From assembly GCA_013375405.1 (NCBI GenBank), contig JABXJU010000106.1, forward strand, positions 1 through 14,284: a stretch of 14,284 nucleotides of DNA, given 5' to 3'. The translations under genes were made by a program, and so were the position numbers. The number at the start of each line of letters is the position of its first letter. Position 1 is the first letter of the stretch. The notes beneath the pieces were generated by a model, which was not told the origin of the DNA, made no database searches, and was given only the letters and a program-made list of their open reading frames with translations. Shown here piece by piece: positions 11,599-12,731 of the stretch. This stretch comes from Candidatus Helarchaeota archaeon. Its GTDB lineage: Archaea; Asgardarchaeota; Lokiarchaeia; Helarchaeales; HEL-GB-A.

Positions 11599-11606
11599 GG
11601 AGGTGA
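11599..11606 (+). promoter_or_regulatory. Perfect Shine-Dalgarno site deciding the selD start
   Basis: GGAGGTGA is fully complementary to the archaeal 16S rRNA 3' end. It lies 7 nt before CTG 11614 in the selD frame. A TAA at 11611-11613 closes that frame just upstream, so initiation must be at or after 11614. Confidence 0.75.
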
Positions 11607-11613
11607 TTTGTAA

Positions 11614-12654
11614 CTGCCTGATGAATATCGATTAACCTTGGCAGTGGATATTCACGGATGAAGCTGTAAATTACCACAGAAGGAACTTTCCGCCTTAATA
11701 AAGGATGCCAACATTCAAATACCCCTGAATGACCGAATTCTCGCAGCAATTGGCGAAGATTCAGCAGTTATCAAAATCAGAGACGATTTAGCTTTAGTTA
11801 AAACTATCGATATTTTTACACCCCTTGTTGATGATGGTTATATTCAAGGACAGATTACTGCGTGCAATGTCACCAATGATATTTACGCGATGGGTGTGAC
11901 AGATATTACTGGAGTTTTGGTTTTTGAAGCCTTTCCCAATGATATGCCACATGAAATCGCAGTAAATTTGCTCAAAGGCTTTTGTGATTTCTCGAGTCAA
12001 CTTAATGCACCAGTTATTGGAGGACACACTATTATCAATCCTTGGCCACTATTAGGTGGGTGCGCTATTGGAATCTCACATCCTGCGAAAATCACATATA
12101 CTTATAATGCCCAACCTGGTGATTCCCTTATTTTAACGAAAGCCTTAGGAACGCAACCGGCAATGGCAGTCTATCGATTGCTGCGTGATGCTAAAATTTC
12201 GGTTGAGGAAATATTTCCAAATATTACTCGAAAAGAACTCGAAAATTTACCGGAATTAGCAATAAAGGCGATGATAACAAGCGAAAAACCTGTTGCAGAA
12301 ATAATACACGAAATTTCTATTAGTGCAGCAACCGATATCACTGGATTTGGACTTTTTGGACACGCAACAGAAATGGCTGAAAATAGTAAGGTCAATATCT
12401 TAATTGAGAGTTTCCCGGTGTTCAGTAGAGCTGTAGAAGTGTCTAAAGCATTGGGATACAGTCTTGAAACAGGTGGCTCTGCAGAAACCGCAGGTGGTTT
12501 GTTACTATCAATTCCTCCTGAGAAATTGGATCTTATTGAATCCGAATTGAAAAAAAAGAAAATTCCAGCGTATCAGGTTGGAAAAGTGCTTTCTGGAACC
12601 GGAAAGGTTCATCTATCAGATTCTCTTGAAATTCTTGAAACAAAAGCGGTATGA
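11614..12654 (+). CDS. selD: Selenide, water dikinase (selenophosphate synthetase), selenocysteine-containing
   Basis: Makes selenophosphate from selenide and ATP, the selenium donor for Sec-tRNA. Reading the in-frame TGA at 11659-11661 as selenocysteine gives 346 residues, the normal SelD length, beginning (M)PDEYRLTLAVDIHGUSCKLP. Sec16, Cys18 and Lys19 align with E. coli SelD Cys17, Cys19 and Lys20. Downstream are GEDSAVI, VKTIDIFTPLVDDGY, NDIYAMG, GGHTI and TDITGFGLFGHATEM, the last being highly diagnostic. The first ATG (11890) lies far inside the conserved domain, so it is not the start. CTG 11614 is chosen for the perfect GGAGGTGA 7 nt upstream; TTG 11638 is a weaker option. A SECIS-like structure overlaps the stop codon. 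The gene is probably monocistronic, as a T-tract separates it from gcvH. The protein supports its own synthesis and that of other selenoproteins. Confidence 0.93.
11659..11661 (+). other. In-frame UGA selenocysteine codon of selD
   Basis: TGA sits between GGA and AGC-TGT-AAA, giving G-U-S-C-K at the catalytic loop where SelD proteins carry Sec or Cys. The frame is otherwise open from 11614 to 12651, so this is recoding rather than termination. Confidence 0.9.
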
Positions 12655-12703
12655 AAAATGAAGGAATAGAAAAAAGCTTGATGGTCTATTTCTGATTGAC
12701 CGC
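12646..12703 (+). promoter_or_regulatory. Eukaryote-like SECIS element of selD
   Basis: Helix I is GCGGU (12646-12650) paired with ACCGC (12699-12703). A 5' internal loop of A's follows. The core is AUGA (12658-12661) facing UGAU (12693-12696), allowing U59-U96, sheared G60-A95 and A61-G94, and A62-U93. Helix II is GGAAUAGA (12663-12670) with UCUAUUUC (12685-12692), 8 bp with one G-U, or 9 bp with A62-U93. The 14-nt apical loop starts AAAAA. This matches the eukaryotic SECIS plan (AUGA, A's in the apical loop about 10 nt later, NGAN) and not the classic archaeal GAA/A bulge. Helix I overlaps the last codons and the stop lies in the internal loop. Related structures are reported in Lokiarchaeota. 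The pairing is seen by eye; function is inferred. Confidence 0.8.
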
Positions 12704-12715
12704 CAACGCAGGCGG
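12700..12715. repeat. GC-rich hairpin after selD
   Basis: CCGCC (12700-12704) and GGCGG (12711-12715) form a perfect 5-bp stem with the loop AACGCA, conspicuous in AT-rich DNA. Its 5' arm overlaps the 3' strand of SECIS helix I. A second ACCGC at 12717-12721 could substitute in helix I and leave this hairpin intact. Confidence 0.5.
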
Positions 12716-12731
12716 CACCGCTCTTTCTCAT

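Follow-up and report, generated by a model that had tools for sequence, protein, structure and literature searches.

The selD gene of a Candidatus Helarchaeota archaeon (assembly GCA_013375405.1, contig JABXJU010000106.1; the whole stretch of 14,284 nucleotides analysed is called the window) contains an in-frame UGA, which raises the question of what form of selenocysteine insertion sequence (SECIS) element lies at its 3′ end. A SECIS acts by bringing to the ribosome the Sec elongation factor together with a protein that binds kink-turns, and the upstream UGA is then read as Sec. A first-pass annotation of this sequence had proposed a plain two-stem eukaryotic SECIS that spans the selD stop codon, as another instance of such elements in Asgard archaea.

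Eukaryote-like elements of this kind were found by Huang et al. 2024 (PMC11227280) in 1224 (85.1%) Asgard selenoprotein genes, selD included, and were divided into types I and II, with type II reported for most selD; a 2026 review (PMC13188914) repeats the two-type model. The former paper, citing Mariotti 2016, also notes for Lokiarchaeia a frequent overlap between the stop codon and the AUGA motif. Both the eukaryote-like SECIS in Asgard selD and the stop-codon overlap were already published there, so that the annotation's headline is not new. The review PMC9499178, citing Mariotti 2016, describes a single apical loop in the Lokiarchaeota element, as opposed to two in most archaeal elements; it also reports that the archaeal elongation factor fails to bind the element. 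A 2025 study (PMC11881835) reported that a lokiarchaeal SECIS was not functional in Methanococcus maripaludis and that methanogen elements tolerate shortening if the kink-turn-like motif is kept.

The search model of Huang et al. (PMC11227280) comprises the core, the upper stem, and the apical loop; the lower stem and internal loop are described as lacking highly conserved bases across families, with no further hairpin, and the word "hairpin" is absent from the main text. In contrast, the internal loop of the element described here includes a third helix that is conserved and covaries, and this helix is enclosed by the lower stem. A search of passages in the open-access literature found no description of a SECIS three-way junction or of an extra hairpin. 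What we take to be new is therefore the third helix, which makes the Asgard SECIS a conserved three-way junction, and not the eukaryote-like SECIS itself.

The selD gene and the fold of its 3′ end

The gene and its Sec codon are located as follows:

11599-11607, + strand, Shine-Dalgarno-like GGAGGTGAT of selD (from the sequence)
11614-12654, + strand, selD (selenophosphate synthetase) frame (from the translation, with TGA read as Sec)
11659-11661, + strand, in-frame UGA, the Sec of HGUSCK (from the translation)

The product matched the NCBIfam SelD equivalogs with 352 and 223 bits, above the cut-offs (291 for the 352-bit match). It was 77% identical to the SelD of Hel_GB_A over residues 2-346 and about 49% identical to the next named relatives, and an internal TGA was present in 30/30 of the best selD matches in the Asgard genome search. 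There is no ATG upstream of the Sec codon, and the start is probably CTG 11614, with a TTG or GTG further in also possible.

A non-AUG start behind a strong Shine-Dalgarno sequence (11599-11616 in the window) seems to be a pattern that the window shares with relatives L001, L019-L022, and L014. In the window, TTG-TAA lies immediately 5′ of the CTG; the Hel_GB_A gene has ACG at the position of this CTG, the Jordarchaeia-type start is CTG, and that of one Borrarchaeum selD is perhaps CTG. At the left edge of the window, positions 1-354 contain the end of an open frame that has, by eye, the look of a transposase fragment.

Folding gave the full extent of the SECIS element as 12645-12722, a three-way junction of 78 nt with the following parts:

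12645-12650, + strand, helix I (P1) 5′ arm, in the last selD codons (fold, pair probabilities, covariation in relatives)
12652-12654, + strand, selD stop UGA, on the 5′ side of the junction (sequence, translation)
12658-12661, + strand, AUGA, 5′ half of the kink-turn quartet (sequence; TGA invariant in the seed alignment)
12662-12670, + strand, helix II (P2) 5′ arm, 9 bp (fold)
12671-12684, + strand, A-rich 14-nt apical loop AAAAAGCUUGAUGG, type I, without a stable ministem (fold)
12685-12693, + strand, helix II (P2) 3′ arm (fold)
12693-12696, + strand, UGAU, 3′ half of the kink-turn quartet (sequence)
12700-12704, + strand, third helix (P3) 5′ arm CCGCC (fold, covariation)
12705-12710, + strand, P3 loop AACGCA (parse; the usual loop of the group is (Y)GYRA)
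12711-12715, + strand, third helix (P3) 3′ arm GGCGG (fold, covariation)
12717-12722, + strand, helix I (P1) 3′ arm ACCGCU, partner of 12645-12650 (fold, pair probabilities, distal-arm covariation in relatives)

The kink-turn core was seen in the sequence exactly as the annotation had placed it, its AUGA/UGAU quartet having the predicted pairs U.U, G.A, and A.G, and the 9-bp helix II and A-rich apical loop were recovered on folding. The element also spans the stop codon as had been claimed, with UGA 12652-12654 inside the internal loop. The proposal for helix I held in part: its 5′ arm is indeed within the coding sequence, but its 3′ arm is at 12717-12722 and not at 12699-12703, and a third helix (the P3 hairpin 12700-12715, 5 bp with the loop AACGCA) is also present. 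When positions 12640-12710 were folded alone, 12646-12650 paired with 12699-12703 (z -1.60; 13/200 shuffles as good), whereas in the fold of 12640-12730 the P1 5′ arm paired with 12717-12722, with a second hairpin between (z -1.96; 11/200 as good). For the same 91 nt, the three-way junction had a folding energy of -23.6 kcal/mol compared to -12.8 kcal/mol for the two-stem form, and the pair probabilities were 0.79-1.00 and, for the two-stem helix I, 0.00. The pairing of 12646-12650 with 12699-12703 was thus rejected on energy, on pair probability, and on the comparison with relatives given below. Since folding energy relative to shuffles is weak evidence, relatives were examined.

The window was also compared with published descriptions. 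The core 5′-GA_[G/A]A of Huang et al. (PMC11227280) is present as GA 12660-12661 with GA 12694-12695, the upper stem (7-15 bp with up to 2 mismatches in that scheme) has 9 bp and 0 mismatches, the apical loop of 14 nt is within the 8-20 nt of type I, and the element lies within -30 to +600 of the end of a selenoprotein gene, here selD with its in-frame UGA. The type II form is a published tendency for most selD and not a requirement, and the window element is of type I instead. The type I pattern with up to 2 mismatches gave 5 matches in -30 to +600, not above shuffles (mean 4.39), whereas without mismatches it gave one match, the core identified by the annotation, with 0.037 expected. The eukaryotic SECIS features (kink-turn quartet, helix II, and apical adenines) are all present; an Rfam scan gave no SECIS family match up to E 5, its one match being unrelated. 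The annotation had further held that the element is not of the classic archaeal GAA_A form, and a search of -30 to +600 around the selD stop gave 0 matches to the methanogen-type form, in which a GAA_A bulge separates two stems.

Conservation, covariation, and association with UGA-containing genes

The SelD query (P0001) had matches, paralogues included, in at least 188 of the 227 genomes of the phylum. A set of 113 selD ends was assembled from the best 30 matches, 80 taken by place (4 of them second copies), and the window, L005, and L007; the set was drawn from the matches listed and leaves out partial matches, most second copies, and paralogues. The ends were scanned for P1, NTGA, P2, GA or AA, P3, and P1′ in that order, with a scoring that was devised after the selD ends had been seen, and at the strict threshold of 33 the three-way junction was found in 95/113 ends compared to 5/565 dinucleotide shuffles. 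The window scored 48.4, which was reached by 0/3000 dinucleotide shuffles of its region (highest 41.4). A two-stem scan without P3 found 27/113 ends at a score of 25 (shuffles 5/565) and 7/113 at 30 (shuffles 1/565).

Of the 18 ends below 33, one is L007, which encodes a SelD with Cys instead of Sec and had no parse in the strict scan, and 17 contain UGA. Under relaxed rules, 12 of these 17 reached 33, 4 of them on a core other than that in the Thorarchaeia alignment; the background was 10/339 shuffles at 33, and these rules also gave a parse of the Cys control L007, in which the score was 36.2, a loop was 43 nt long, and the P3 loop motif was missing. Among the remaining strict-scan misses, G080, G145p, and G125 matched covariance model R1, and G107 and G082 are doubtful as three-way junctions. 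At least one strict selD parse (G112p, 33.5) is in the wrong register.

In most parses P3 adjoins P1 with 0-1 nt between them. GCA or GCG occurs within the P3 loop and its closing bases in 75/95 strict selD parses, and the common loops UGCGA, CGCAA, UGCAA, UGUGA, and CGUAA have the form (Y)GYRA; those of Helarchaeales and Borrarchaeum selD (AACGCA, CACGCA, and AAUGCA) are longer and keep the GCA. The stop codon lies 7 nt upstream of the core in the window and 12-15 nt upstream in most Lokiarchaeia-type genes.

All three helices covary, so that this check, which the annotation had suggested for helices I and II, came out strongly. The helices of the window and of Hel_GB_A are identical and show no covariation at that depth. 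In an alignment of 64 rows from 99 sources, which was fitted to the model and hence leans towards structure, 90.0% of the cells were paired (shuffles 63.4), 288 cells had changed on both sides compared to 77.3 in shuffles, and the covariation score was 0.690 compared to 0.200 in shuffles and at most 0.117 with the partner slid. By helix, the paired cells were 89.8% (helix I), 87.2% (helix II), and 95.0% (helix III), with two-sided changes in 5/5 pairs of helix III. All 18 pairs had some two-sided change, which is not in itself unusual (shuffles 16.2; 48/500 as high). Matches with E values as high as 1 were admitted to this alignment, and one or more of these (L038, minus strand) are off site; the seed omits G106 (misaligned), G154, and G140.

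For 35 Thorarchaeia-type sequences aligned independently with MAFFT, one row of which was given the structure, 90.1% of the cells were paired (P1 99.6%, P2 78.2%, and P3 96.0%). Here 16/20 pairs changed on both sides (shuffles 11.3; 0/500 as high), with a score of 0.461 compared to 0.214 in shuffles and at most 0.154 when slid. The P1 5′ arm in these 35 genes encodes the end of SelD, E-T-E-F-P in most, and its coding-strand variants GAGACCG, GAGACTG, GAAACTG, and GAGGCCG have matching changes in the 3′ UTR, on the other side of the stop codon.

In the same Thorarchaeia-type genes (L024-L031 and L033-L059), the stop UGA is the UGA of the kink-turn core in 35/35; the stop therefore seems to be held to UGA, which is also the Sec codon.

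An initial idea that P3 is confined to selD was dropped when P3 was found at UGA-containing FlpD genes. Among the matches listed, UGA-containing FlpD/FrhD ends reached 33 in 22/27 cases (shuffles 5/540) and 30 in 24/27 (shuffles 15/540), the strict count being made up of 17/20 in a first test (shuffles 2/400) and 5/7 for seven ends added to it; five of the 27 were below 33, three of them without any parse. In contrast, 0/29 UGA-free FlpD ends, presumed to carry Cys, reached the threshold in the same scan, and none reached 25. These controls came from the same 20-genome set as the UGA-containing ends, 24/29 from 16 genomes that also have UGA-containing ends, after exclusion of L183 (at a contig edge) from 30. 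The FlpD tests were run later than the selD scan, with the same scoring and with a range that was equal for both FlpD groups and wider than that for selD. The architecture therefore follows UGA recoding rather than membership of a gene family. In FlpD, GCA or GCG was present in the P3 loop with its closing bases in 19/22 strict parses; the near-identical relatives L188 and L189 were parsed with a P3 lacking such a loop, although one having it is possible. Huang et al. (PMC11227280) state that hdrA shares the frhD element. Among the matches listed to NiFe-hydrogenase large subunits (PF00374, 17 genomes), none contained TGA.

Proposed function and alternative explanations

We consider it highly probable that the element is the cis-acting SECIS of selD and that it acts as a three-way junction; as far as a sequence can tell, it is a genuine Asgard SECIS. 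What the sequences show is its anatomy, its conservation and covariation, and its association with UGA-containing genes, whereas its function in UGA recoding, the proteins that it would bind, and the role of P3 are inferred. P1, starting in the last selD codons, would close the element, with P2 carrying the kink-turn quartet at its base and the adenines in its loop and with P3 set against the P1 3′ arm. When the ribosome reaches the UGA about 990 nt upstream of the folded element, the element would recruit an L7Ae/L30e-type protein that binds kink-turns and, either through this protein or directly, the Sec-specific elongation factor carrying Sec-tRNA, and UGA would then be read as selenocysteine. 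With its GNRA-like loop, P3 may provide a second contact or recognition site, or may fix the arms or the junction geometry. Because the P1 5′ arm is in the coding sequence, a terminating ribosome should open the base of the element.

A plain two-stem SECIS, with helix I formed by 12646-12650 and 12699-12703 and a downstream hairpin that is irrelevant, would agree with the descriptions of Asgard and Lokiarchaeota elements in Huang et al. (PMC11227280) and in the review PMC9499178, which are given without a third helix, and the 5-bp pairing does exist and gives the best fold of a sequence that ends at 12710. However, on the full sequence this form is 10.8 kcal/mol weaker and its helix I has no pair probability, the distal arm pairs and covaries in relatives, in which P3 is paired in 95.0% and 96.0% of the cells of the two alignments, and the scan without P3 separated real ends from shuffles far less well, so that we regard it as improbable. 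We give the same low standing to the idea that P3 is a transcription terminator or an mRNA-stabilising hairpin that lies 3′ of the SECIS by chance: P3 is a G+C-rich hairpin near a gene end, but P1, with a 5′ arm on the upstream side of the SECIS core, surrounds it, it directly adjoins P1 in most parses, GCA or GCG is kept in its loop with the closing bases in most strict parses of both selD and FlpD, and the architecture was not found after any of the 29 UGA-free FlpD genes. L7Ae-type proteins bind kink-turns in general, and it could be supposed from this that the binding of L7Ae or L30e to the kink-turn serves to autoregulate the selD mRNA (its translation or stability) and not to recode UGA; this is less probable still, since the architecture follows FlpD genes that contain UGA and not those that are free of it, which fits recoding and not the control of selD.

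The three-way-junction SECIS resembles eukaryotic SECIS elements of type I in its kink-turn quartet, its helix II of about 9 bp, and the adenines at the start of the apical loop, and differs from them in the three-way junction, in the location of the P1 5′ arm in coding sequence, and in the absence of an Rfam match. The eukaryotic SECIS partner SBP2, whose L7Ae-type domain is reported to bind kink-turns (PMC2746813), was not detected in Asgard archaea according to PMC9723677. The element is like the methanogen SECIS (GAA_A) in its 3′ location and its kink-turn-like internal loop, unlike it in having no GAA_A near the selD stop. It also resembles a k-junction, which is a kink-turn at a three-way junction, in having G.A pairs at such a junction, whereas the spacers are longer here and the fold is a predicted one.

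In light of these results the Asgard element looks less like a near-copy of the eukaryotic SECIS, and the conserved extra domain common to the selD and flpD/frhD elements is a concrete candidate for a binding site. A bolder reading, to which we give somewhat less than an even chance, is that P3 with its (Y)GYRA loop is an essential, previously undescribed domain of archaeal SECIS elements outside the methanogens and is read by a stand-in for SBP2, which may be the short domain IV of the archaeal elongation factor, an L7Ae-family protein, or the ribosome. If so, the eukaryotic SECIS would have arisen from a three-armed form that lost P3 when SBP2 took over, and an element tested without P3 could fail, which might bear on the lokiarchaeal SECIS that was inactive in Methanococcus maripaludis (PMC11881835).

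Covariance models and the distribution of the element

The comparison yields covariance models with which such elements can be sought; SECISearch3 had produced no significant results for Huang et al. (PMC11227280). In a search of 70 kb, model R3, built without the two Helarchaeales sequences, recovered Hel_GB_A with E 2.3e-6 and the window with E 0.0023. Within the window the left-out model ranked the element first (E 0.00046 unfiltered; next 0.23), with P2 and P3 placed correctly and P1 in the wrong register, because the spacer between P1 and the core is longer in the window (7 nt) than in most seed sequences (about 3). On 33 sources, R3 matched L001, the window, L027, and L018 on site (E at most 0.019) and L193 weakly; an off-site match came from L026, and R3 failed to find the remaining Thorarchaeia-type and FlpD sources. 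The Thorarchaeia model R2, at E up to 1, found 3/27 sources outside its training group (L087, L005, and L197) and missed the window. Models trained on selD rarely found FlpD elements (R3 1/20, at E 0.26; R2 1/12).

When model R1 was run on the 227 Asgard genomes, there were 90 matches at E up to 1.2e-6, followed by a gap to 3.9e-4. By eye, 87/90 of these follow a selD copy among the matches listed, two, on other contigs, follow a SelD C-terminus (L140 and L209), and one (G148, L210) follows only the apparent last codons of SelD. As R1 was trained on selD, this says little about other genes. The last match (L210 143-213, minus strand; G148:C22:1342-1412; E 5.8e-18) is an orphan SECIS that adjoins another selD copy, which suggests a remnant of a deleted tandem copy or an assembly chimera. 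Many Lokiarchaeia-type genomes (L119-L122 and others) have two UGA-containing selD copies close together, often each with a SECIS.

In seven selD genes (four of Jordarchaeia type, G075, G074, and G076), an insert of about 30-31 nt follows TNDVY or TSDVY, at a site common to all seven around SelD residues 95-98 (L019-L023, L211, and L212). In L019-L023 the insert is 30 nt long and contains a TAA in frame and a hairpin with a stem that varies in sequence from lineage to lineage; the frame is shifted in L211 and L212. One fold of the L021 insert resembles a bulge-helix-bulge, so that the insert may represent a very small mRNA intron of archaeal type within a selenoprotein gene.

L005 carries a UGA-containing selD with an Asgard-type three-way junction in a genome (G228) that is named Euryarchaeota archaeon and is the sole one of its phylum searched. 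This genome (L005 and L191) has UGA-containing FlpD genes as well, and 1/2 of the FlpD ends tested parses as an Asgard-type three-way junction. SelD matches were also found in 4 unannotated phage records, with 27-31% identity.
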